In this document: one piece after another, positions 12,013 to 31,555 of the stretch
Layout of the letters: each line of letters begins with the position of its first letter
Position numbering within the stretch: position 1 is the first letter of the stretch
NCBI GenBank assembly: GCA_003105035.1
Contig: PQAL01000036.1
Span: 136,499-200,498, forward strand
Direction of reading: 5' to 3'
DNA length: 64,000 bases
From: Anaerolineales bacterium
GTDB lineage: Bacteria; Chloroflexota; Anaerolineae; Anaerolineales; UBA4823
Translations under genes and position numbers: made by a program
Notes under the pieces: model-generated
Told to the model about the DNA's origin: nothing
The model's input: the letters and a program-made list of their open reading frames with translations, nothing else
Database searches by the model: none

Positions 12013-12624
12013 TTATCTTTCCCGGGGGGTTTCTCCGGGGAGGTTCAGCTCACCTCCGTCTTTGCGATAAAACACCAGTACCGTGCTCCCGTAATGCCTT
12101 TGGTCAAACTCCACCAAGTTCTCAAGAGGTAGTTCTTCACCAATCGGTTTGTATTCGATCGGGTGGATCTGCACGATCAACCAGGCATCATCAGATAGCC
12201 AGGCAGGTTGCCGGTCAATTAATACCAATGACTTGCTCCACATCTCCTTGTACTGAGGGGGAGCAATAAAAATGTAGTCGAACGACTGGTTGGGGGCCCG
12301 GTCAAGCAGGCTGAAGGCATCTCCCTGGTTCACTATTGCCCCTTGCTCGAGGCCGGTGATTTTGAGGTTTTCGCGGATGATGGTGTATGCCTGCCGGTTG
12401 AGTTCATTGAACTGTACAAAAGCCGCCCCCCTGCTCAACGCTTCAATGCCGACACTGCCCGTGCCCGCGAACAGGTCTAAAAATGATGCCCCTACAATGT
12501 CAGGCCCGATGATGTTGAAAAGTGCCTGCCTGACCTTGTCGGTGATTGGCCTGGTTGTGTCTCCAGGCACCGAGCGGATCCGCCGGCCACGTGCTTTACC
12601 CCCAATGATCCTGAGATCACTCAT
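12013..12624 (-). CDS. rsmD: 16S rRNA (guanine(966)-N2)-methyltransferase RsmD
   Basis: 203 residues from the ATG at 12624; an in-frame upstream start would add 20 non-family residues lying inside the preceding gene. MSDLRIIGGKARGRRIRSVP is the classical RsmD N-terminus, TRPITDKVRQALFNII follows, and the SAM-binding motif is DLFAGTGSVGIEALSRGA. The catalytic motif IV, normally (N/D)PP(Y/F), reads IAPPQY here, so the acidic/amide residue is replaced. It methylates G966 in the 30S P-site region in other bacteria. The start overlaps the end of the UroD-like gene by eight bases, so translation is likely coupled. Confidence 0.85.
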   Translation of the reverse strand: MSDLRIIGGKARGRRIRSVPGDTTRPITDKVRQALFNIIGPDIVGASFLDLFAGTGSVGIEALSRGAAFVQFNELNRQAYTIIRENLKITGLEQGAIVNQGDAFSLLDRAPNQSFDYIFIAPPQYKEMWSKSLVLIDRQPAWLSDDAWLIVQIHPIEYKPIGEELPLENLVEFDQRHYGSTVLVFYRKDGGELNLPGETPRER

Positions 12625-13612
12625 GCCGTGCGGCCTGCAAAGCAGCCAGGATATTTGCGGATGGCGTCGTGGTTTGCAGCACACAACCCGTCCCCAGGAT
12701 AAAGCGCTGGTTTGCAGTACTCAAGATCGCATCACGCGCTTCTGAATGCACATGTTCGGGTGTACCCAGCTCCATTGTCGCGGTGCGTTGCAGCCCACCA
12801 CACACCACGCCTGGGAATAGTTCCTTTCCTTCTTTTAAAGACGGATAAGTTTCACGGTCATGCCAGTTGATCACTTGTACGGGGTAATCGGTAAAGACAT
12901 TGAACATGACATGATTGCCATGCAGATGGATCATATTCAGCCATTTATCACGCACAGCGGAGAGGATTTCTAAGTCAAGCATCTTACCAAATTGCTTATA
13001 CTCAGCTTCAGATAACAACTGATAGTTCCCATGTTGAACTGCGTAGAATACCCCGGCATTCCCTGTTTGGCTGGCGGCTTCAATAAAACTGCGTGTGGTT
13101 TCGGCAATCACTTTTAAACCTGCCAGCACCGCCTCCGGATATTGGCGGATGTGTACCAGCAGGGCTTCTCCACCAACCAGGTTTTTAGCCTGAGCAAGTG
13201 GACTGAAGATGGTCTGAAGGATGGGAACGTCTGGCCCGAGTTCATTGCATATTATTTTTAAGCATGAGAGCTGTTCACCTAAATACCCTTTATAAGGATC
13301 CAATACTGGAAGCTTGAGCCAATCTTCGGGGGTATGGATTACCCGGCGTGTATACTGCCTGGTTCCCTCTGAGTTTCCCTGCCATTCATCTTCTGCACCC
13401 CAATCTTTAATGCAGAATGAAGAAGCAGGTGTCACCTTAACCAGGTCGAAATCATATGTTTTCTGAAAGCTGATCACCGCATTTGCCAGGCTCTCGGGAG
13501 ATTGATCATCTACCGGGAAATGTCGCCAAAGGGCAACTGGTGTATCTTCACGGCTTTCTCCATTCAAGCATTTTTCTATTCGCTCTCGATGCGTAATGTT
13601 TTTCTTACCCAA
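12617..13612 (-). CDS. Uroporphyrinogen decarboxylase-family protein (corrinoid methyltransferase type)
   Basis: A 331-residue TIM-barrel protein of the UroD/MtaA superfamily. It lacks the RQAGRY signature of true HemE near the N-terminus and instead reads TPVALWRHFPVDDQSPESLA, as in UroD-like methyltransferases that move methyl groups to or from corrinoid proteins. A His-rich IHLHGNH motif near residue 237 and a GTGCVLQ cysteine near the C-terminus occupy positions where MtaA-type enzymes bind zinc (His-x-Cys and Cys). The start is a TTG at 13612 with GGGAG eight bases upstream; no ATG or GTG fits. Substrate unknown. A corrinoid protein is encoded at 26947, a possible but unproven partner. 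Confidence 0.75.
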   Translation of the reverse strand: MGKKNITHRERIEKCLNGESREDTPVALWRHFPVDDQSPESLANAVISFQKTYDFDLVKVTPASSFCIKDWGAEDEWQGNSEGTRQYTRRVIHTPEDWLKLPVLDPYKGYLGEQLSCLKIICNELGPDVPILQTIFSPLAQAKNLVGGEALLVHIRQYPEAVLAGLKVIAETTRSFIEAASQTGNAGVFYAVQHGNYQLLSEAEYKQFGKMLDLEILSAVRDKWLNMIHLHGNHVMFNVFTDYPVQVINWHDRETYPSLKEGKELFPGVVCGGLQRTATMELGTPEHVHSEARDAILSTANQRFILGTGCVLQTTTPSANILAALQAARHE

Positions 13613-13677
13613 CTCGTTTTCTCCCTTCGATCACACGACCACCACTTAGCAGGCACCTTGCGGGGTAAATCCGGTAA

Positions 13678-14877
13678 TTATTTTGCATCATTTATGGTTG
13701 AGTCCACAGCTGTGTTAATCTCATCTTCTTCACTGGATTGCTCAGATAGATATTTTTCAATGAATTGAGACCGTCGCATTCGTAACGCCATCGGTGCAAT
13801 GACCTGTAAGTCATCCACAGTCACTTCCTTACGGTTGTCCAATGCTGCCAGAGCTTTCATGCCCTCAAACATAGTGATTTCCGCCCGCAGAGAATCAATC
13901 TTCAAGCTTTTAATCAATTTCAAACCCTGATTGTAAAGTAGTTCAGAGATACAAACTTCCGCTAGAATGTCACGCGCTAGCTGGACTTCACCCTGAGCAA
14001 TCATGGTTTCATCCTTATATTCCTGTATCACTTTGTGCGGATTCTTCAAGAAAGCCTGAGCTCTTTGATAAGCTTCCAGGCGGTCGTGGTTATCTTCCAA
14101 ACCTCGCACGACAACACGTAATCCGAAACGGTCCATGATCTGCGGCCGTAGACGGCCTTCTTCTGGGTTCATTGTGCCGACCAGCATGAAACGTGACCGA
14201 TATGTGGCGGTATTAGTCCCTCGCTTGACTGTATAGGATCCATACGCGGCAGCATCCAAGATGGCATCGACCACATCATCAGAAAGAAGGTTGACTTCGT
14301 CGACCAGCAGTAAGTTGCGGTCGGCGTGCGATAGGATTCCGTGCTGCAACCGCAGGCGTTGGGTACCCAAATCCGTTTCATTGGTTGCCCCGACCACATC
14401 TTCAATGCGGGCATTCAAGGGCAGCTCAACCAGCCTGATTTTATCCATTGCAGCCAATGGCTCACCCATGGCATATTTCCTGGCACAGCTCGGGCACACC
14501 GCATCGATTCCACCCGCTTCAATATCTTCTGGCATGCAGCCGTAGAAACACAAGCTGCGTGGGATTTCTGGCACCAGGTCTACCAAACCTCGGATGGCGG
14601 TCGTTTTACCCGTGCCGCGTGGTCCTATCAGCAGCACACCTCCGATCGCCGGATTGATCAAAGCAAGCAAGAGCGCATATTTCATCTCTACCTGACCAAC
14701 CAGCGCCAGGAAAGGAAAAGGCAAGCTCTCAACCAATCCACTATCCGGCTGTGATTGAGCTTCAACCAGATCCTTGCCTGTGGTATGCGCCAGGAGTGCT
14801 TTTAACGATGGGAATTTACTTGCCGTTCCAATTGGATCTTCGGGTAGTCCGGGTTGCTCGGAGGATTCATTATCCAT
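13678..14877 (-). CDS. ChlI/BchI-like AAA+ ATPase
   Basis: 399 residues. LIGPRGTGKTTAIR is Walker A (about residues 84-92), LLLVDEVNLL Walker B (about 189-198), and FMLVGTMNPEEGRLRPQIMD the sensor region with arginine finger, all characteristic of the magnesium chelatase I subunit group. Four cysteines (110, 114, 128 and 131; the last pair in CPSC) sit in the insert after Walker A and may bind metal. No ChlD (VWA) or ChlH gene is nearby and no chlorophyll genes are seen, so a generic chelatase or MoxR-like remodelling role is as likely as Mg insertion. It begins 17 bases after a small repeat protein gene, probably one operon. Confidence 0.82.
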   Translation of the reverse strand: MDNESSEQPGLPEDPIGTASKFPSLKALLAHTTGKDLVEAQSQPDSGLVESLPFPFLALVGQVEMKYALLLALINPAIGGVLLIGPRGTGKTTAIRGLVDLVPEIPRSLCFYGCMPEDIEAGGIDAVCPSCARKYAMGEPLAAMDKIRLVELPLNARIEDVVGATNETDLGTQRLRLQHGILSHADRNLLLVDEVNLLSDDVVDAILDAAAYGSYTVKRGTNTATYRSRFMLVGTMNPEEGRLRPQIMDRFGLRVVVRGLEDNHDRLEAYQRAQAFLKNPHKVIQEYKDETMIAQGEVQLARDILAEVCISELLYNQGLKLIKSLKIDSLRAEITMFEGMKALAALDNRKEVTVDDLQVIAPMALRMRRSQFIEKYLSEQSSEEDEINTAVDSTINDAK

Positions 14878-20393: not shown

Positions 20394-22025
20394 ATGAATC
20401 ATCCAAATTATCCATCCACACCAGCCTGGCTCGAAGACGCCGTTTTTTACCAGATTTACCCTCAATCTTATTATGACTCAAATGGGGATGGAATCGGGGA
20501 TATCCCCGGTATCATTGCGAAACTGGATTATCTCCAATCGCTGGGCGTTACTGGATGTTGGCTGAATCCCTGTTTTGAGTCTCCCTTCCAGGACGCCGGG
20601 TACGACGTGGCGGACTATCGCAAGGTTGCTCCCCGTTATGGGACGAATGATGATTTGAAAAACCTGTTCTTTGAAGCTGCCAGGCGTGGAATCCACATCC
20701 TGCTCGACCTGGTTCCTGGTCATACTTCACTTCAGCACCCCTGGTTCATTGAATCTTGTAAACCTGAAGCCAACCGATATTCTGATTACTACATCTGGAC
20801 CGACAGTGCCTGGAAGTGGGAAGTGCCAGGCTATAAGGTCATTAGTGGTTACGCTGATCGCGATGCCAGTTTTATCACCAACTTTTTCTACTTCCAACCT
20901 GCACTAAATTACGGCTATGCCAATCCTGACCCGTCTCAACCCTGGCAGCAGTCTGTGGATGCACCTGGTCCCCAGGCTGTGCGCCGTGAGCTAAAGGAGA
21001 TCATGCGCTTCTGGCTAGAAATAGGCGCCAGTGGCTTCCGGGTGGATATGGCTTTCTCCCTGGTCAAAGGTGATCATGGCAGCCGTGAGACGGCTAAAAT
21101 CTGGAAAGAGATCCGCACCTGGTTGGACGCAGAATATCCCGAAGCCTGCCTGATCTCTGAATGCGGCGTCCCCTCGCTTGCTATCCCAGCAGGTTTTCAT
21201 ATGGACTTTTGTCTCCCATTTGGGATGCCGGGATATACCGCTTTACTCCGCAAATCCTATGGTCCTGGCCCAGGCAGCGACCCTTATAGCTTCTCATTCT
21301 TCGATGCCATCGGCAATGGCAACATCATGGAATTCCTGGATGAGTACCTGATGCATTATCGGGCTACCCGCGGCTTGGGCCATATCGCTATCCCCACAGG
21401 GAACCATGATATCAACCCTCGCCTGAGCAAAGGCCGTAACCTGCGCGATCTCGAGCTGGTATTCATGTTTTTAATGACCATGCCAGGGGTTCCTTTCATC
21501 TGGTACGGTGACGAGATCGGTATGCAGTCGTTCGATGATCTATCATCAAAAGAAGGGGGATACAACCGCACAGGTTCTCGCACGCCCATGCAGTGGTCAG
21601 AAGCACCCAATGCCGGTTTTTCAACCGCCTCAAATGAATCCCTCTACCTGCCAGTTGACCCTTCTCCAGACCGTCCATGCGTTGAAGCCCAGGAGCGCGA
21701 TCCCGATTCCATCCTCCAGCGGGTTAAAAAATTAGTGGCTATACGAAAAGCACATCCGGGTCTGCAAGCTTCGGCTCGTTTCGAGGTCTTGTATGCGGAA
21801 CCGGGAAAATATCCATTTATATACAAAAGAAAAACCGGAAGCGACACCTATATCATTGCGCTGAATCCTGCTGAGAGAGCCTGTAGTGGTGAAATTAGCT
21901 ACACTGCTACCCAATCTCCTGAGTGGATTTATGGAGAAGAGGGAATTTTCCAGCTTGGAAAAAGCAATTTACAATTTCATTTATCGGGTGTGAGTGGTGG
22001 AATCTACCGCATACGAGAGCCCTGA
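20394..22025 (+). CDS. GH13 alpha-amylase-family glycosidase (alpha-glucosidase-like)
   Basis: 543 residues. The N-terminal VFYQIYPQSYYDSNGDGIGD is the oligo-1,6-glucosidase/alpha-glucosidase signature. Conserved regions follow: DLVPGHTSLQH, GFRVDMAF (nucleophile Asp), LISECGVPS (acid/base Glu) and TGNHDINPR (transition-state Asp). A C-terminal beta domain ends the protein. No signal peptide is visible, so it acts on intracellular alpha-glucosides. It is the first gene of a tightly spaced set (six bases to the next gene). Confidence 0.9.
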   Translation: MNHPNYPSTPAWLEDAVFYQIYPQSYYDSNGDGIGDIPGIIAKLDYLQSLGVTGCWLNPCFESPFQDAGYDVADYRKVAPRYGTNDDLKNLFFEAARRGIHILLDLVPGHTSLQHPWFIESCKPEANRYSDYYIWTDSAWKWEVPGYKVISGYADRDASFITNFFYFQPALNYGYANPDPSQPWQQSVDAPGPQAVRRELKEIMRFWLEIGASGFRVDMAFSLVKGDHGSRETAKIWKEIRTWLDAEYPEACLISECGVPSLAIPAGFHMDFCLPFGMPGYTALLRKSYGPGPGSDPYSFSFFDAIGNGNIMEFLDEYLMHYRATRGLGHIAIPTGNHDINPRLSKGRNLRDLELVFMFLMTMPGVPFIWYGDEIGMQSFDDLSSKEGGYNRTGSRTPMQWSEAPNAGFSTASNESLYLPVDPSPDRPCVEAQERDPDSILQRVKKLVAIRKAHPGLQASARFEVLYAEPGKYPFIYKRKTGSDTYIIALNPAERACSGEISYTATQSPEWIYGEEGIFQLGKSNLQFHLSGVSGGIYRIREP

Positions 22026-22031
22026 TGCCTT

Positions 22032-23783
22032 ATGGAAAACTTCTCTTTAGATCAGATACCATTTTCACGCAACGGATCATTCCTGCTGATCACCTCACGT
22101 AACTCGAGCGGTTCTCCCCGCCTGCTTTACAAGACTTGCAGTGGCCGAGTGCACAACCTGCATGACATTCCATTCCCTGCCGATGAATTCTTCGAGCTTG
22201 CATTAATCAAGAATGGACAGGAAATCCCTTATACCTGGCAAGCCCAACCCGGGCTGTTGATCTTGTCCGGCCCTTCTGGTGAGGAGGTCAGCATCGTGTT
22301 TGCTGACCAGGCCACGTTGCAATTTCATGCCCGGAATACTGGCCTTCGTTTGATGCCTTCCAAGGTGTTCCCTGTACAATATTCTCCTGTCCCCCACCAG
22401 ATTTACCTGATTGACTGGTTTGCGCGTGGCATCCACATGTTCCATGCGGATGAGAATACTCGCTTGCTCGCCAACATTACACCCATCGTCACCGGGATCG
22501 AAAAACACTGGGGTGAGTTTCCTTGTACGATCACCTTTGAGCCCAGGCTTGAAAATACAACCATCAATGGGGCGATTCGTTTTTCTCGCTACGAGGGCTT
22601 TTGGGAGCAACCCCCTGGTGACCTTGCCAAAGCCCATGCATCGCTGAAAACGGAATTATCAAGCTGGATGCAGAAGTTACCTTCCGTCCCGGAAAAATAC
22701 CAGGAGAAGGCCGAGCTGGCCTGGTTCTTATTATGGAATTGCCAGGTGCCTGCTGAAGGTGCTCTAAACCGTCCAACGATTTACATGAGCAAATTCTGGA
22801 TGAATGGCATCTGGGCCTGGGACAACCTGTTTAACGCCCTGGCCCTCGCCAGGGCAGACCATCGCCTGGCCTGGGATCAGCTTTTCCTGTTTTTCGATTA
22901 CCAGGAGCCCAATGGCATGATTCCAGACATGATCACCGATATGGAGCCGATATACGGCTTTACCAAACCTCCCATCCAGGGTTGGGCGATCTTGCAATTA
23001 GTCGACCGCTTGGGCATCGAAAAATCGCTCCCTTATCTCCGCAAGGTATACGAGCCGTTGAGCCGCCTTACCAGGTGGTGGTACACCTATCGCGATTTCG
23101 ATCATGATGGACTACCCCAGTACTTCCATGGCAATGACTCCGGCTGGGATAACGCCACTGTTTTTGATCAGGGTGAGCCTATTGAAGGTGCAGACCTGGG
23201 CGCCTATATGGTTTTCCAATGCGAATGCCTGTCCTTCATCGCAGATGCGATTAACCGGCCTGAAGAAGCCAAACAATGGAAGGCAAGAGCCCAAAAACAG
23301 CTCTCAGATCTACTTGTCCATTCCGTCAGGGGTGGTCACTTCATCTCGCCCGTCAGTGGCACTTCGCAGGCTGAGCCCAGCCAATCGCTGATTAATTATC
23401 TCCCCCTGATTTTAGGCCAGCGCCTGCCTGAGCGCATCCGTGAAGCGTTAATTAATGACCTTCGACCCGGGGGTCCATTTTTGACGGAATTTGGCCTGGC
23501 TTCAGAACCGCCCTCCAGCGTTAAATATATGCATGATGGCTACTGGAGAGGGCCGATATGGGGTGCTTCCACCTATCTGGTTTTCGATGGTCTTTTGCAA
23601 TCAGGTGAGACACCCTTGGCTGGTCTGATTGCTGAACGTTTTTGCGATATGTGCCTGCAAGTGCCTGGCTTCTGGGAAAATTATGATGCCCTGACCGGCC
23701 AGGGTTATCGCTGCCCGGGGTATTCATGGACGGCTTCGATATTTATATTACTCGCCGAATGGCTGGCGAAGAAAAAATCATAG
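22032..23783 (+). CDS. GH63-like (alpha/alpha)6-barrel glycosidase
   Basis: 583 residues. After an N-terminal beta domain (about 1-190) comes a helical barrel with MNGIWAWDNLFNALAL, YFHGNDSGWDNATVF, DGYWRGPIWGASTYLVF and GYSWTASIF, a set found in GH63 and related GH37/mannosylglycerate hydrolase enzymes. The Asp in the first motifs and Glu/Asp near GWDNAT are candidate catalytic residues. It probably releases an alpha-linked glucose or mannose residue. No signal peptide. It could also be annotated as a trehalase-like or debranching-like enzyme; the bond cleaved is uncertain. Confidence 0.75.
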   Translation: MENFSLDQIPFSRNGSFLLITSRNSSGSPRLLYKTCSGRVHNLHDIPFPADEFFELALIKNGQEIPYTWQAQPGLLILSGPSGEEVSIVFADQATLQFHARNTGLRLMPSKVFPVQYSPVPHQIYLIDWFARGIHMFHADENTRLLANITPIVTGIEKHWGEFPCTITFEPRLENTTINGAIRFSRYEGFWEQPPGDLAKAHASLKTELSSWMQKLPSVPEKYQEKAELAWFLLWNCQVPAEGALNRPTIYMSKFWMNGIWAWDNLFNALALARADHRLAWDQLFLFFDYQEPNGMIPDMITDMEPIYGFTKPPIQGWAILQLVDRLGIEKSLPYLRKVYEPLSRLTRWWYTYRDFDHDGLPQYFHGNDSGWDNATVFDQGEPIEGADLGAYMVFQCECLSFIADAINRPEEAKQWKARAQKQLSDLLVHSVRGGHFISPVSGTSQAEPSQSLINYLPLILGQRLPERIREALINDLRPGGPFLTEFGLASEPPSSVKYMHDGYWRGPIWGASTYLVFDGLLQSGETPLAGLIAERFCDMCLQVPGFWENYDALTGQGYRCPGYSWTASIFILLAEWLAKKKS

Positions 23784-23805: not shown

Positions 23806-26800
23806 ATGGTTGATTTCAATTCATTACTACATCTTGGTGGTTCCTGCACCTGGGAAATGCCTCAGCTCACCGGCTTTAATAAACTTCCCCCGCGTGCCAC
23901 TCTCTACCCCTACCCGAATTCCGATGCTGCGCTGCAGGCTGATCGTAACGCCTCTCCCTGGTTTCTAAGCTTGAATGGCACCTGGGACTTCCAGCTACAC
24001 TCCTGCCCGGAAGAGCTTACCAACTCAGCATTACACGAGGCGGATTGGACACCCATTGAAGTTCCAGGTAATTGGACTATGCAAGGTCACGGCTATCCGC
24101 ATTATACGAATGTAGTCATGCCCTTCCCCAACCTCCCCCCGGAGGTTCCTGATGAAAATCCCACAGGCATTTATCGTAAGACTTTTAGCCTACCTGCTAC
24201 CTGGCAGGATCGTCGTATCGTCCTTCACTTTGGTGGCTGCGAGGGTGCATTATTTGTGTTTCTCAATGACCATCCCGTTGGTATCAGCAAAGATGCGCGG
24301 ACGCCTGCTGAATTTGATGTATCCTCCCTGGTTAAGCATGGAGAACCTAACGAATTGCTCGCTATCGTTACGCAGTGGTCCGACGCTAGCTTCCTGGAAG
24401 ACCAGGATCACTGGTGGCAGGCAGGCCCTCAGCGTGAAATATTTCTTTACTCCACTGGTCTCCCATTCATCCAGGATGTATTTGCACTCTCCGACCTGAC
24501 GGATAATCATCAGGGGGGTCTTCTTCATGTAAAGGTAGCACTTGGCTTTCCAGGTGAACGAGCACAAAATTGTGAAGTTGAAATTCAATTATGCGACCCA
24601 CAAAATATTATTGTAATCACCGATACGCAGAAAATCGGCTCGGATTCATTAACCGATGAGTGGCTTGCTCCTGCTGCCCCTTCCAATGTATTGATGTTTG
24701 AGCATTCCATTCCTTCCCCTTTGCCCTGGTCAGCGGAAGACCCTAACCTATATACCTTACTGATCATCCTAAGGTCACCAGGCGGAGAAGAATCAACCAG
24801 TTGCAAGGTCGGCTTTCGCAAGATAGAAATCCGTGAACGCATGCTGTTGCTCAATGGTAATCGCATCATGATCAAGGGAGTCAATTACCATGATCATGAT
24901 GAGAGTACTGGCAAGGCAATCTCGAGGGAATTGTTTGAAAAAGACCTGCACCTGATGAAGCAGTTCAACATTAATGCCATCCGCACCTCGCACTATCCCA
25001 AGGACCCCTATTTTTATGACCTGTGTGATCAGCTTGGTTTTTATGTTGTAGATGAGGCCAACCTTGAAACCCACGCCTTTTACCAGGATCTCTGCCATGA
25101 CACCCGCTACACCAATGCGTTCCTGGAACGCAACCAGGCCATGGTCGAGCGCGACAAAAATCATCCCTGCATCATCCTGTGGTCGTTAGGGAACGAAAGT
25201 GGTTATGGCCCTAACCATGATGCAGTCGCTGGTTATATTCGTGGGCGTGACCCAAGCCGGCCATTGCACTACGAATCTGCCCTGGGGAATTATTGGGAAG
25301 GCGCCGAGTGGCAAGGTGGCCAACGCGTCACCGACGTGGTCTGCCCGATGTATCCACAGATTGAAAACATCATCAGCTGGTCACAAAATGATAAAGGTAA
25401 TCGTCCGATGATCTTGTGTGAGTATTCGCATTGCATGGGTAATAGCAACGGCTCTCTTTCTGATTATTGGGCTGCGTTCGAAAAATACCCCGGCATGCAG
25501 GGTGGCTTCCTATGGGAGTGGATCGATCATGGCATTTTGCACACCGGAAAAGATGGAAAATACTATTATCTATATGGGGGTGATTTCGGCGACCTGCCTA
25601 ACGACGCCAACTTCTGCACCGATGGGATCGTCTGGCCCGACCGGACACCCCACCCGGCGTTATACGAGTTCAAATACCTTGCCCAGCCGTTGAAAGTCAG
25701 TCGCCTGGCAAGCAGTGCTGAACGTTTCCGCATCACCAACAAGCAAGATTTTACGTCCTTAGCGTGGTTATGCGGGCGATGGGAGCTGACTTGTGATGGT
25801 GAGGGTATCCTGAGTGGTGAGATTACAGACCTGAACATTGCTCCGCATCACTCGAAAATCATTGAGTTGCCTATTCGTAATTCCTTTGAGCGCGATGGAG
25901 AATATTTCATAAATTTCATTTTTTCCCAACGTAACGCAACAGCCTGGGCACCGGCTGGCCATGTTGTTGCCTGGGAGCAACTCCCACTTTCCAGGCTTCC
26001 GGTAAAAGCAAAACCAGGTGGAAAACAATCCCAGAAAGCTGGAAAGATCGATATTCGTCAGACTAATCAGCATATTTTGTTATCCACTGGCCCAATACAC
26101 GCCATGTTCGATTTGATGGAAGGTGAGCTGACCGAATTCGGTGCAGGTGTCAATTTCATCATGCATGGCCCTCGTCTGAACGTTTGGCGAGCAGCCACTG
26201 ATAATGATGGCATCAAGCTATTGAAAGACCGCCTTATCGAATCGATGAAGGTGTTGTCATTCTGGGACGCGCTTGGCTTGCCAGCCCTGCGATACCGCTT
26301 GAAGTCGTTTCGGCTCGTCGAGCAACCTGGCTCGCTGCCTAAGGTAGTAATCAAGCAGCTAGCGTCGGGGAGGGATCAATGGGAGGATTTTACATTCACA
26401 CAATCTTACACGCTCCTTACTTCAGGGAAGCTTGTCGTCTCCTGCGTGCTCATTGCTGGACCCGGTATCATTGACCTGCCGAGGGTTGGAGTCAGCCTGT
26501 GCCTTCAGCCTGGCCTGGAAAATCTCACCTGGTACGGTCGCGGACCATACGAGAATTATCCCGATCGGAAGTCTTCAGCCATGCTTGGGATCTACCACAG
26601 CACTGTTTCCGAACAGTATGTACCATATATTATGCCCCAGGAACATGGTCATAAAACCGATACCAGGTGGTTGCTTTTAAATGATGCGGATGGCCAAGGG
26701 ATTAAAATTGTGGGTCATCCAACGCTTGAATTTAATGCCAGCCATCTCACCGATCATGATCTATATTCTGCCCATCATACTGTAGATCTGCAGCCGAACC

Positions 26801-26943
26801 CTGAGATTTATTTGAATATTGACGCTGCCATGCGTGGTCTGGGCACTGCCAGCTGTGGTCCCGATACGCTGGACCAGTATCGCTTGCTCAAGCCCAGGTA
26901 TTCTTTCAGCTTTTCGATGGAAATATCTCCAAGGAATTTTTAA
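23806..26943 (+). CDS. lacZ: Beta-galactosidase, GH2 LacZ type
   Basis: 1045 residues, close to the length of E. coli LacZ, with the five-domain arrangement: jelly-roll (WFLSLNGTWDFQL, PGNWTMQGHGYPHYTN), immunoglobulin-like domains, a TIM barrel and the C-terminal Bgal_small_N domain (TWYGRGPYENYPDRK). The acid/base Glu is residue 464 in WSLGNESGYG and the nucleophile is Glu539 in LCEYSHCMGN, almost the same numbering as LacZ. It hydrolyses terminal beta-galactosides in the cytoplasm. It starts 22 bases after the GH63-like gene and ends three bases before the corrinoid protein gene. Confidence 0.93.
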   Translation: MVDFNSLLHLGGSCTWEMPQLTGFNKLPPRATLYPYPNSDAALQADRNASPWFLSLNGTWDFQLHSCPEELTNSALHEADWTPIEVPGNWTMQGHGYPHYTNVVMPFPNLPPEVPDENPTGIYRKTFSLPATWQDRRIVLHFGGCEGALFVFLNDHPVGISKDARTPAEFDVSSLVKHGEPNELLAIVTQWSDASFLEDQDHWWQAGPQREIFLYSTGLPFIQDVFALSDLTDNHQGGLLHVKVALGFPGERAQNCEVEIQLCDPQNIIVITDTQKIGSDSLTDEWLAPAAPSNVLMFEHSIPSPLPWSAEDPNLYTLLIILRSPGGEESTSCKVGFRKIEIRERMLLLNGNRIMIKGVNYHDHDESTGKAISRELFEKDLHLMKQFNINAIRTSHYPKDPYFYDLCDQLGFYVVDEANLETHAFYQDLCHDTRYTNAFLERNQAMVERDKNHPCIILWSLGNESGYGPNHDAVAGYIRGRDPSRPLHYESALGNYWEGAEWQGGQRVTDVVCPMYPQIENIISWSQNDKGNRPMILCEYSHCMGNSNGSLSDYWAAFEKYPGMQGGFLWEWIDHGILHTGKDGKYYYLYGGDFGDLPNDANFCTDGIVWPDRTPHPALYEFKYLAQPLKVSRLASSAERFRITNKQDFTSLAWLCGRWELTCDGEGILSGEITDLNIAPHHSKIIELPIRNSFERDGEYFINFIFSQRNATAWAPAGHVVAWEQLPLSRLPVKAKPGGKQSQKAGKIDIRQTNQHILLSTGPIHAMFDLMEGELTEFGAGVNFIMHGPRLNVWRAATDNDGIKLLKDRLIESMKVLSFWDALGLPALRYRLKSFRLVEQPGSLPKVVIKQLASGRDQWEDFTFTQSYTLLTSGKLVVSCVLIAGPGIIDLPRVGVSLCLQPGLENLTWYGRGPYENYPDRKSSAMLGIYHSTVSEQYVPYIMPQEHGHKTDTRWLLLNDADGQGIKIVGHPTLEFNASHLTDHDLYSAHHTVDLQPNPEIYLNIDAAMRGLGTASCGPDTLDQYRLLKPRYSFSFSMEISPRNF

Positions 26944-26946
26944 GCC

Positions 26947-27588
26947 ATGGAAACCATTCTCTACCGGATTTTCGCAGATGTGCTGCACGGCAACCATAAA
27001 GATACTGTAAGTGATGTAAGATCTGCCTTAAACCAGGGTGTGCTTCCATTATTGATACTAAATCAGGGGATGATTGCAGCCATGCAGGAAGTTGGGCGGT
27101 TGTTCGAAGCTGGTGAGTATTACGTTCCCGAGATGCTCGTTTCTGCCCGGGCAATGCAGGCCGGTATGAGCGTGCTCAAGCCATACATATCTGATCAGGA
27201 TGCACACCCATCTGGAAAAGTTGTGCTTGGCACGGTATCAGGCGATTACCATGATATCGGCAAGAATCTGGTTAAAATGATGCTGGAAGGCTCCGGATTC
27301 GAAGTCATCGATCTGGGTGTGGATGTAAATGCGAAGACTTTTGTTAGCGGAGTAGCAATGCATCAAGCCGATATCCTGGCGATGTCAGCCCTGATCAACT
27401 CCACCATGCCACACATGCGCCCGGTCATTGAAGCTCTGGAAGAATCCGGCATCCGTGAGCGGGTAAAGGTCCTGGTGGGGGGAGCACCTGTCTCTGAAAC
27501 ATTTGCCCACCAGATTGGAGCCGATGCTTATGCGCCGGATGCCAGCCGGGCAGCTTCCACAGCGAAATCGCTTCTGGCCCTCCGCTAA
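26947..27588 (+). CDS. Corrinoid (B12-binding) protein of the MtaC/MtbC/MttC type
   Basis: 213 residues: an N-terminal helical cap (about 1-85; MQEVGRLFEAGEYYVPEMLV) and a Rossmann-like cobalamin domain with GTVSGDYHDIGKNLV, whose Asp-x-His-x-x-Gly supplies the lower cobalt-ligand His. MSALINSTMPHMRPVIEAL and VLVGGAPVSETFA complete the family pattern. Such proteins carry a methyl group between a substrate-specific methyltransferase and an acceptor. It lies three bases after lacZ inside a glycoside hydrolase cluster, an unusual location, and no methyltransferase is adjacent; the nearest candidate is the UroD-like gene at 12617. Confidence 0.88.
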   Translation: METILYRIFADVLHGNHKDTVSDVRSALNQGVLPLLILNQGMIAAMQEVGRLFEAGEYYVPEMLVSARAMQAGMSVLKPYISDQDAHPSGKVVLGTVSGDYHDIGKNLVKMMLEGSGFEVIDLGVDVNAKTFVSGVAMHQADILAMSALINSTMPHMRPVIEALEESGIRERVKVLVGGAPVSETFAHQIGADAYAPDASRAASTAKSLLALR

Positions 27589-27658: not shown

Positions 27659-30600
27659 ATGTCGCTAAGCAAGGAATGGCTGAACCGCATCACCCATTGG
27701 AATAACGCCCTTTGGCAGATCTGTTATGAGCCTTTGCAAACCCTTGAGCTGAGTGGATTCGTCACCCGAAAGCAGCTTACGGCGGAGCAGGCACTTATGC
27801 ACAAATTTCACTCCATGCCCCTGGGCACTGCCTGGGGGGCAAAATGGGAATACGGCTGGTTCCAGTGTGAGTTCAGTTTACCTGATAGGGCAGCGGGGAG
27901 GCGGATTGTTCTGTACATGAACCCGGCAGCCAAATCTCCGGAGGATGGTGAGTGCCTAGTTTGGGTCAACGGAAAAGTAGCTGGAGCTTTTGGATGGGCA
28001 AAACGTGAGCTAACCCTCACCAGGAATGGCATTCCCGGGGCAAAATACGCTATCCTGGCAGAAGCCTATGCCGGGCATGGCCCTTTTGGCACCCACGACG
28101 TCCCCGTCATGGGCGGAGGCCCGGTGAGATACGGACATCCACCCTTCCCCGAGATTGGTAACACACAGTGTGTGGTCGGTAGCACAAGCTTTGGTATCTG
28201 GAGAGAGCAGGCTTACCAGCTAGCTTTGGATTTCACCACCCTGTTCGAGCTACGTAACAGGCTTGACCATGCTTCATTGCGAGTCTCGGAAATTGACCAG
28301 GGTTTGAAGGATGTCACCCTGCTAATCGACCTCGAGCTGCCTGAGCCGGAAATGCTGGAGACCATCAATTTCGGCCGTGAGAGATTACACGCTTTGCTCG
28401 CCAGTATTAACGGCTCTACCGCCCCCACCTTATTCGCCTTTGGGCATGCGCATATCGATGTCGCTTGGCTCTGGCCGTGGGCGGAGACAGACCGGAAGAT
28501 TGCTCGCACGGTCAGTAATCAGCTCGCCTTGATGGAAGAATATCCGGATTACCGTTTCCTCCAATCACAACCTCAGCTTTATCTCATGTTGAAGAGCCAT
28601 TACCCCGAATTATACGAACGCCTCAAACAGGCTGTTCTGACAGGCAAGGTAATCGCTGATGGAGCCATGTGGGTCGAAGCTGATACCAACATCACGGGGG
28701 GTGAAAGCCTGATCCGCCAGATCATGTATGCCAAGCAGTTCTTTAAGCAGGAGTTCAACCTGAATATGGAGGTGATGTGGCTGCCCGATGTATTCGGTTA
28801 CACCGGTTCCCTTCCCCAGATCCTCCTCCAAAGTGGATGCACCAGCTTTGCAACCCAAAAGATCGCCTGGATTTATCATGGAGGCGATCCGTTCCCATAC
28901 ACGACATTTCTTTGGGAAGGGATTGATGGCTCTGTCATCCCAACCCATATTTTCTCGGATTACAACAGTGAGACACGACCCAGCAGCTTGCTCGACCGTT
29001 GGGAAGGTCGTTTACAGAAAGATGGCATCCGCTCGATGTTATTACCCTTCGGTTGGGGTGATGGAGGTGGTGGCCCTACCCGTGACCACCTGGAATTCCT
29101 GGCTCGTGCTAAGGATCTGGAAGGCTTGCCCAGGGTCAGACTGTCTTCCCCATCAAAATTCTTTGCCGATCTAAAACAACAAGGCCTTCCTAAAGAACGG
29201 TATGTGGGTGAGCTGTATTTCCAGGCTCACCGCGGTACCTTCACAACCCAGGCACGCACGAAAAAACTTAATCGTCAAAGTGAAATTGCCTTAAGGGAGG
29301 CTGAGCTTTGGGGCTCAATTGCCTATATCCTGAATGGGTATCGTTTTACATCAATAGAGCTAAAACCTTCGTGGCTTAAGCTACTGCTCAATCAATTCCA
29401 TGATATCCTGCCGGGTTCATCAATTCACCGGGTTTATGAAGAAGCCGAGGCAGCCTTCTCACAGGTGATCTCTTCTACTAAAACTTCTACACGATCCTCC
29501 CAGATCTCATTGATCCCCACGAAGACGCCTGGCTTTTTCACGATTTTTAATTCGCTATCCTGGGAACGAAAAGCACTCATAGAAACATCACAAGGTGTTT
29601 TTGAGGTGATCGTGCCAGCTTGCGGTTGGACAACGGTAAATGAAGGCACAAGCCAGCCCAAGAGTTTCCAGAATGGGCGGGTGAAAACAACCCGCACCAG
29701 TCTCGAGAACGAATTTCTAACCGCTACTTTTAATGACAAAGGTGAGCTGGTCAGCCTTCTAGATAAAGAAACACATATGGAGCTGTTGACAGGTCCCGGG
29801 AACCGCTTCTGTCTGTATAAAGACATCCCTGCTCGGTTTGATGCCTGGGATATCGACAGTATGACCGAAGCTTTGCTCATGACCACTGACGAACCGGTGA
29901 GCCTGGAAGTTTTGGCGGCAGAACCATACATTGGCAAGTTGAAGCTCAGTCGCAAGCTCCACAATTCAACCATCTCCCAGGTTATTAGCCTAGAAAGCGG
30001 AAAACGGGTCATCAAATTTGAGACCGCCGTCGACTGGCAGGAAAGCCACAAACTGCTCAAGGTAGCCTTTCCGGTTAATTTCCACGCCAATGAGGCCATC
30101 CACGAGATCCAATTTGGCCATATCCGCAGGCCAAACCACCGATCCCGCCCGTTTGATGCTGATCGTTTCGAAGTGTGTAATCACAAGTGGAGCGCCCTGG
30201 CAGAGGAGAATCGTGGAATTGCTATCCTGAATGATTCAAAATATGGCATCAACGTGCTCGGCAACATCATGAACCTCACCCTTCTGAAATCTGCCCTGGC
30301 ACCTGATCCTCTCGCCGATAAAGGACATCAAACCTTTACCTATGCCCTCTATTCCTGGAATGGAAGTTTTGGAGAGAGCGAAGTGGTCAAGGAAGCGTAT
30401 GAATTGAATAATCCAATAAGCCAGCTGCCAGGTGCGGCTGGTGAGGTATCATGTTTCAAATTAGATGTTTCGAATGTTATTCTTGAAACAGTCAAACTGG
30501 CTGAAGATGGCTCAGGTGACCTTATCCTGCGATTATATGAATGCAAGCGTAACCACACCCGCTGCAGCCTGGTAACCACACTTCCTGTACAGGACGCCAC

Positions 30601-30727
30601 GCAGACTGACATGCTGGAAAGATTTCAATCGACGTGCGACATAACACAGGGTAAAATCGAGCTAGAATTTCATCCTTTCGAGATCAAAACCTTGCGTCTT
30701 TCGATGGTAAACCAAGAGCATGAATGA
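27659..30727 (+). CDS. Alpha-mannosidase, GH38
   Basis: 1022 residues from the ATG at 27659, which has GGAG eight bases upstream; an in-frame ATG at 27503 lies inside the corrinoid gene. GHAHIDVAWLWPWAET carries the zinc-binding His and Asp, MWLPDVFGYTGSLPQIL the nucleophile Asp, and LLPFGWGDGGGGPT the next conserved block; KPSWLKLLLNQFHDILPGSS leads to the beta-sandwich domains. These are characteristic of cytoplasmic bacterial/Ams1-type GH38 enzymes, which trim alpha-mannosides from oligosaccharides. Last gene of the glycan cluster; rluB follows 33 bases later and may be read through. Confidence 0.92.
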   Translation: MSLSKEWLNRITHWNNALWQICYEPLQTLELSGFVTRKQLTAEQALMHKFHSMPLGTAWGAKWEYGWFQCEFSLPDRAAGRRIVLYMNPAAKSPEDGECLVWVNGKVAGAFGWAKRELTLTRNGIPGAKYAILAEAYAGHGPFGTHDVPVMGGGPVRYGHPPFPEIGNTQCVVGSTSFGIWREQAYQLALDFTTLFELRNRLDHASLRVSEIDQGLKDVTLLIDLELPEPEMLETINFGRERLHALLASINGSTAPTLFAFGHAHIDVAWLWPWAETDRKIARTVSNQLALMEEYPDYRFLQSQPQLYLMLKSHYPELYERLKQAVLTGKVIADGAMWVEADTNITGGESLIRQIMYAKQFFKQEFNLNMEVMWLPDVFGYTGSLPQILLQSGCTSFATQKIAWIYHGGDPFPYTTFLWEGIDGSVIPTHIFSDYNSETRPSSLLDRWEGRLQKDGIRSMLLPFGWGDGGGGPTRDHLEFLARAKDLEGLPRVRLSSPSKFFADLKQQGLPKERYVGELYFQAHRGTFTTQARTKKLNRQSEIALREAELWGSIAYILNGYRFTSIELKPSWLKLLLNQFHDILPGSSIHRVYEEAEAAFSQVISSTKTSTRSSQISLIPTKTPGFFTIFNSLSWERKALIETSQGVFEVIVPACGWTTVNEGTSQPKSFQNGRVKTTRTSLENEFLTATFNDKGELVSLLDKETHMELLTGPGNRFCLYKDIPARFDAWDIDSMTEALLMTTDEPVSLEVLAAEPYIGKLKLSRKLHNSTISQVISLESGKRVIKFETAVDWQESHKLLKVAFPVNFHANEAIHEIQFGHIRRPNHRSRPFDADRFEVCNHKWSALAEENRGIAILNDSKYGINVLGNIMNLTLLKSALAPDPLADKGHQTFTYALYSWNGSFGESEVVKEAYELNNPISQLPGAAGEVSCFKLDVSNVILETVKLAEDGSGDLILRLYECKRNHTRCSLVTTLPVQDATQTDMLERFQSTCDITQGKIELEFHPFEIKTLRLSMVNQEHE

Positions 30728-30760: not shown

Positions 30761-31555
30761 ATGAAGGAAAGATTACAGAAATTGCTCGCTGCCGCAGGCT
30801 ATGGTTCACGACGCTCCTGCGAAGCTCTGATTCTGGCTGGCAGGGTGACGGTTAATGGCGAAACTGCCCAATTAGGGTCAAAAGCTGATATCGCTGAAGA
30901 TCAAGTTAAGCTGGATGGTAAGTTGATCAAGCGGCCAGAAGCAAACCAGTACATCGCTTTATACAAACCTCGTGGGGTTATATCTGCAGTCACTTCACCC
31001 GATGCTCGCCCCACGATACGTGACCTCGTGCCGCTCGAAGGCACTTTATATCCTGTGGGACGTCTCGATGCAGACAGTGAAGGGTTGATCCTCCTGACCA
31101 ACGATGGTGACCTGGCCAATCAGCTCACCCATCCCCGCTACGGGCACGAGAAAGAGTATCGCGTGCTCGTCGCCCGTCATCCAGATGAAAAACAACTTAC
31201 CGCCTGGCGCCACGGAGTGGTGCTTGAAGACGGCTATCGCAGTGCACCCGCCCAGGTTGATATTGAAGCTAATTCCGGTAAAGGGACCTGGTTGATAGTA
31301 ACCATGAAGGAGGGTCGCAAACGCCAGATACGTGATACCTGCCGCCAGATTGGCTTACCGGTAGTCACGATCATCAGGGTGAGGATTGGTCGTTTGCGAC
31401 TTGGCAGCTTGAAGGCTGGTGAGTGGCGCAAGTTGACTGAAAACGAAATAAATTCCCTGAAAAAACCCGTTGATTCAAAAAGTGTTCACAAACCAGCTGG
31501 TAAACAAAACACCCGACGCCCAATCCAGCATATCAAGAAGACTAAAAACGGGTAA
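30761..31555 (+). CDS. rluB: RsuA/RluB-family pseudouridine synthase
   Basis: 264 residues. An N-terminal S4 RNA-binding domain (RLQKLLAAAGYGSRRSCEAL) is followed by the catalytic domain with YPVGRLDADSEGLILLTNDG, containing the catalytic Asp, and KEGRKRQIRDTCRQIGLPV. The C-terminal 30 residues are basic and disordered-looking (Lys/Arg-rich). The enzyme isomerises a uridine in rRNA; RluB (23S U2605) is the likeliest assignment but RluE/RluF/RsuA cannot be excluded by eye. GAGGA lies upstream of the ATG at suboptimal spacing. The 150-base gap downstream (31556-31705) holds no further gene. Confidence 0.85.
   Translation: MKERLQKLLAAAGYGSRRSCEALILAGRVTVNGETAQLGSKADIAEDQVKLDGKLIKRPEANQYIALYKPRGVISAVTSPDARPTIRDLVPLEGTLYPVGRLDADSEGLILLTNDGDLANQLTHPRYGHEKEYRVLVARHPDEKQLTAWRHGVVLEDGYRSAPAQVDIEANSGKGTWLIVTMKEGRKRQIRDTCRQIGLPVVTIIRVRIGRLRLGSLKAGEWRKLTENEINSLKKPVDSKSVHKPAGKQNTRRPIQHIKKTKNG

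Follow-up and report, generated by a model that had tools for sequence, protein, structure and literature searches.

UroD-superfamily O-demethylases of the MtvABC, MtoABC, and CdmBCA systems act on methoxylated aromatics or haloalkanes (PMC8630106, PMC13222342). In type 1 mlp clusters, UroD-family proteins, a corrinoid protein, and a Ram/RACE activase belong to one system, for which methyl-sulfur/selenium substrates have been proposed; these clusters require at least two Mlps and Ram together, with sulfur/selenium genes (PMC10418091). Nothing on corrinoid-dependent (anaerobic) sugar O-demethylation was found in the literature searched, which comprised open-licence PubMed Central papers.

The window, a 64,000-nucleotide stretch of DNA from an Anaerolineales genome, contains a gene (26947..27588, + strand) whose product is almost certainly a corrinoid methyl-carrier protein, the CP of a three-component corrinoid methyltransferase system. 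The product has the same domain order, length, axial-histidine motif, and fold as the corrinoid proteins of such systems (MtvC/MtoC/OdmA-type and MttC/MtgC-type; 1y80, 4jgi, and 7xcn), whereas its locus is without MTI, MTII, and activase, its neighbors are glycosidases, and its residues Y101 and I150-N151-S152 occur in 0 of 108 relatives. The scheme that we propose is the one described for MtvABC, MtoABC, and CdmBCA, in which MTI, carrier, MTII, and activase lead to tetrahydrofolate and the Wood-Ljungdahl pathway. However, MTI is absent from the window locus, and related carrier loci hold sugar-catabolic rather than aromatic genes. The components that define type 1 mlp clusters are likewise absent. 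Our preferred but tentative reading is that the protein is an orphan methyl carrier whose methyltransferase, plausibly a sugar O-demethylase, is encoded at another locus. Among the genomes examined, the placement of its gene in a glycosidase operon is confined to this lineage.

The carrier protein

The carrier frame extends from an ATG at 26947 to a stop at 27588 (213 codons, no internal stops) and encodes a 213-aa protein with B12-binding_2 (PF02607, 72 bits) and B12-binding (PF02310, 92 bits) domains, both far over the cutoff. A B12-binding_2 cap followed by a B12-binding domain within about 210 aa is the architecture of corrinoid methyl carriers, and every residue of the D-x-H-x-x-G/S-x-L/GG cofactor motif is present (axial His102 in D100-Y-H-D-I-G105, S147-A-L149, and G178-G179). 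A phmmer search of known structures matched the corrinoid proteins 1y80, 7xcn, 4jgi, and 3ezx. The AlphaFold model (pLDDT of 94.5) has a helical cap and a Rossmann-like fold and resembles the B12 modules of MttC, MtaC, and MetH as well as 4jgi; the B12 domain is 56% identical to that of 1y80 from Moorella thermoacetica, at 0.9 Å. The first-pass annotation described a complete B12 protein starting 3 bases after lacZ and followed by a GH38 gene, and the intact frame, domains, motifs, fold, and intergenic gaps all agree with that description. The gene is a further member of a known family, an ordinary protein in an odd place.

The same annotation called the protein "MtaC/MttC-type", a label that holds for the family but not for the substrate type. 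The carrier scored under every curated cutoff of the substrate-specific NCBIfam models (MtgC, 217 versus 370 bits; MtbC, 180 versus 350 bits; MtaC, 131 versus 450 bits), including those of the best-scoring models, glycine-betaine MtgC_2 and pyl_corrinoid. Since none of these cutoffs was reached, the substrate of the carrier cannot be told from sequence. The MetH model gave 148 bits for the carrier and 102 bits for its paralogue on contig C33.

The carrier retains 64 of 71 conserved columns, every motif residue among them, and the carriers paired with methyltransferases on contigs C24 and C18 deviate more. Residue 101, inside the D-x-H motif, is tyrosine, which was seen in none of the 108 other carriers, and residues 150 to 152 are Ile-Asn-Ser, where 104 to 106 of those 108 have Leu, Thr, and Thr. 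In known corrinoid structures, the loops with these residues face the cofactor. The substitutions may represent specialization or drift.

The glycosidase run and its distribution

The carrier lies within a same-strand run that begins with a GH13 gene of the trehalose synthase/alpha-glucosidase-like kind (20394..22025, +). This is followed by a GH63/MGH1-like glycosidase gene related to mannosylglycerate/glucosylglycerate hydrolases (22032..23783, +), a LacZ-type GH2 beta-galactosidase gene (23806..26943, +), the carrier gene, a GH38 alpha-mannosidase gene of the Ams1/cytosolic type (27659..30727, +), and, last, an S4-domain RNA pseudouridine synthase gene (30761..31555, +). Sequence searches placed GH13 nearest to trehalose synthase/alpha-glucosidases, GH63 nearest to glycosylglycerate hydrolases, and GH38 nearest to cytosolic Ams1-type alpha-mannosidases. 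The gaps along the run are, in order, 6, 22, 3, 70, and 33 bases. The lacZ stop codon ends at 26943, GCC separates it from the carrier ATG, and an AAGGA within the 3' end of lacZ is a possible ribosome-binding site for the carrier. For GH38, a TTG start at 27503 was judged less likely than the ATG at 27659, which is preceded by GGAGAG and yields the 70-base gap. Scans for promoters and terminators returned matches no commoner than those in shuffles. The run from GH13 to the pseudouridine synthase is probably one transcript. The carrier gene resembles its neighbors in the run in GC content, GC3, and codon usage, so that composition gives no sign of a recent foreign insertion.

No methyltransferase gene is present in the run, and UroD-type MTI, MTII, and activase genes are all absent beside the carrier. 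Because the locus holds no partner, we infer that the carrier acts with a methyltransferase encoded elsewhere.

A conserved association of corrinoid genes with GH2 and GH38 genes, which the first-pass annotation suggested looking for, was not found. A corrinoid gene was seen beside 0 of 26 LacZ homologues (1.5-kb flanks) and at 0 of 34 GH38 loci, and GH2 or GH38 was seen near other carriers at 0 of about 109 loci (6-kb radius); some contigs in this survey were short, which makes single negatives weak but not their sum. Among sampled genomes from the same order, none had a match to this type of LacZ at an E value of ≤1e-250. Neither 60 relatives nor about 85,000 scanned species genomes yielded a relative of the carrier exceeding 59% identity, and viral contigs yielded no relative. 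Since the GH2-carrier-GH38 arrangement is absent from all other loci examined, its placement is lineage specific: the carrier gene lies among intracellular-type glycosidases in this lineage only. This is the pattern of an isolated insertion absent from relatives, which that annotation had named as a refutation of its own proposal.

At one GH38 locus (L177:8184-12589, genome G009), a UroD-family gene is directly upstream of the GH38 orthologue, at the place where the window has the carrier, and a UroD gene lies within about 7 kb of GH38 at five more loci. A rough chance estimate is about 3 of 34 loci, and this association is therefore at most a weak enrichment, because many of those genomes hold dozens of UroD genes (48 or more UroD-like proteins in some).

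Methyltransferases and one-carbon genes of the genome

The UroD-superfamily protein encoded at 12617..13612 (- strand) had been put forward as a possible partner of the carrier. It matches the MtaA-type methyltransferase model only weakly (69 bits against a cutoff of 244) and 4ay7 at 3e-8, and it has H-L-H-G and G-C where 4ay7 has the motifs H-I-C-G and G-C. Of the 38 genomes examined from the same family, 34 carry it, with few exceptions as a single copy, at roughly 50 to 67% identity. RsmD is a neighbor in 29/29 relatives and an AAA ATPase in 21, and the 1.5-kb flanks contained no corrinoid gene in any of the 29. The gene is 13 kb from the carrier and on the opposite strand. This core distribution and synteny with RsmD, with no corrinoid gene nearby, indicate that the protein is not a dedicated partner, and the proposal was dropped; the gene is a core gene that was not brought in with the carrier locus. 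The cassette of AAA ATPase, UroD-like, and RsmD genes (window 12013-14877, -) is conserved across the order, and its UroD-like protein retains HLHG, often with GTGC. The genome of the window has no strong match to HemE.

Nine frames with a B12-binding_2 domain were found in this genome, one a longer protein of 438 aa and eight short free-standing carriers. Four of the short carriers lie by MtmB-family genes (three on C18 and one on C10), one by an MTTB gene (C24), one with a UroD gene (C33), and one adjoins a divergent UroD-like protein (C37). An adjacent methyltransferase is thus present for 7/8, and the window carrier alone is without one. The unpaired methyltransferases comprise four MTTB genes on C38, one MTTB gene on C43, and one UroD gene on C10. 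The four on C38 are in tandem and accompanied by an Opp transporter (G000 C38:23760-29630), and no carrier gene was present within the 18 to 20 kb examined around the C38 and C43 genes.

On C18 and C10 (L158:7701-16054, L157, and L160:46-2194), several MtmB-family genes stand beside carriers. Those scanned have no in-frame stop and therefore no pyrrolysine codon. L158 also has amidohydrolases and xanthine-dehydrogenase-type subunits, and these loci perhaps serve N-demethylation of purine- or hydantoin-like compounds.

The genome has two RACo genes. One, on C18, is within a Wood-Ljungdahl cluster, next to CODH/ACS, CdhDE, MeTr, and CooC, calls made by reading protein N termini, with RACo alone domain scanned. 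The other (G000 C36:112333-114862; L174:8333-10862) is 49 kb upstream of the carrier on the same contig and is preceded by a gene for a 235-aa protein without a Pfam match. A stand-alone homocysteine S-methyltransferase (PF02574, 295 aa) is also encoded, and no full-length MetH is among the B12-binding frames.

Sugar-linked relatives and competing readings

The nearest paralogue of the window carrier, at 50% identity, is the C33 carrier, which lies in a run with an esterase, a UroD-type protein, an FGGY kinase, and a sugar ABC transporter (SBP_bac_1 and permeases; G000 C33:239520-247382; L155:9520-17382). In trees built from 109 and 53 carriers, the window carrier has a long end branch (0.75) and belongs to no starred set, and the order around it is unresolved. 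It lies outside two well-supported MTTB-linked clades (100/99 and 100/97). Its nearest relatives by tree path, with weak support, are the carriers of L062 and L061; the L139 and L148 carriers, which adjoin MTTB, fall in that same part of the tree. Carriers with a "sugar" context do not group together in the tree (7 changes, the same as in shuffles), and descent therefore cannot place the window carrier among sugar-linked carriers. The tree gave no resolved answer when used to name the partner.

Several related carriers are found in hexuronate operons. L062 has the order Opp ABC, UroD, carrier, UroD, glucuronate isomerase, SDR, lactate-racemase-like protein, 6-phosphogluconate dehydrogenase, and PfkB kinase. 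The carrier, two UroD genes, UxaC, and Gnd recur in L146, from the same order as the organism of the window, and L061 combines Opp ABC, a carrier, three UroD genes, and a UxaC called on a single-sequence profile only. Each of these cassettes (L062:2673-11961, L061:7992-13002, and L146:717-9801) holds a carrier with at least two UroD-type proteins. By their gene content, they are likely routes for O-methyl-hexuronate demethylation; general knowledge of xylan suggests 4-O-methyl-glucuronate as the substrate. Xylose-isomerase-like and FGGY genes are present at the L143 and L138 carrier loci.

In the mechanism that we favor, one or other of the two RACo proteins would bring the cobalamin of the carrier to the Co(I) state. 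A substrate methyltransferase with its gene at another locus would then methylate it, and the methyl group would pass to tetrahydrofolate and on to the Wood-Ljungdahl pathway. The methyltransferase would most likely be a UroD-type O-demethylase of the sugar-catabolic kind, as at C33, so that the cell could use methyl ethers carried by sugars that the enzymes of the operon set free or that enter with them; alternatively, the unpaired MTTB-type enzymes would supply the methyl groups. The C33 paralogue with its UroD, esterase, kinase, and transporter genes, the L062 and L061 operons with Opp ABC, UroD, and UxaC, and the position outside both MTTB-linked clades point, weakly, to a sugar-type UroD enzyme as the leading choice of partner, with MTTB enzymes next. 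Against this choice, the UroD at C33 is already paired with a carrier, and the weak tree placement, long branch, unclustered sugar contexts, and odd cofactor-loop residues count against the reading as a whole. The sugar O-demethylation idea of the first-pass annotation thus remains alive through the C33 paralogue and the relatives with UroD and glucuronate isomerase, having lost both its UroD partner and the GH2/GH38 association.

A general carrier for the unpaired MTTB enzymes, used in quaternary-amine demethylation and placed among glycosidases by accident, is an unlikely but serious alternative. Each side lacks what the other would supply, the top NCBIfam models are of glycine-betaine and pyl_corrinoid type, and L139 and L148 provide MTTB-linked carriers in the same part of the tree. 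Yet all NCBIfam scores are under cutoff, the strongly supported MTTB-linked clades exclude the window carrier, its nearest paralogue is UroD linked, and the C24 carrier, itself MTTB linked, could serve the C38 and C43 enzymes. No dedicated methanol or methylamine methyltransferase, a partner that would speak against a sugar substrate, was shown; these MTTB genes are the candidates.

Slightly less probable is that the gene is a neutral or decaying hitchhiker, inserted in the operon without a functional link and perhaps under relaxed selection. The arrangement found in no other genome examined, the long branch with unique substitutions at near-invariant positions, and the locus without a partner are what such a hitchhiker would leave, but a full-length frame that keeps most conserved columns and all motif residues, a confident predicted fold, codon usage like that of its neighbors, and the greater deviation of the paired C24 and C18 carriers argue against decay. 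We regard as improbable a split-MetH role in methionine synthesis, in which the methyl group would go to the stand-alone homocysteine S-methyltransferase. That enzyme, the missing full-length MetH, the MetH score above that of the C33 paralogue, and the second RACo on the same contig fit this role; however, the carrier is unlinked to PF02574, the MtgC and pyl_corrinoid models score higher than MetH, other carriers could do the same job, and a core role should be conserved, which the 59% ceiling on identity and the lack of a conserved context contradict.

The preferred reading, an orphan carrier plausibly serving a sugar O-demethylase, belongs to a wider and more doubtful proposal: that in Chloroflexota, and possibly others, corrinoid carriers and UroD-type methyltransferases strip O-methyl groups from sugars such as 4-O-methyl-glucuronate before catabolism, with the methyl group then entering the Wood-Ljungdahl pathway. 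The carrier described here would be one of this kind, recruited into a glycosidase operon. In several Chloroflexota, the comparison reveals carriers and UroD-type methyltransferases within hexuronate operons and operons with a sugar kinase, and these sugar-linked operons appear to be undescribed. If true, the proposal would tie methyl ethers of plant polysaccharides to acetogenic C1 metabolism and would explain what some of the many UroD-like proteins so far without a substrate act on.

A family of 366-aa proteins (L138:6928-8028, L144:6915-8063, and L145:4495-5565) had no Pfam match and, by sequence search, no match among solved structures (PDB). In two genomes its gene immediately precedes that of a carrier, and in a third it lies close to one; the family is a candidate new methyltransferase.
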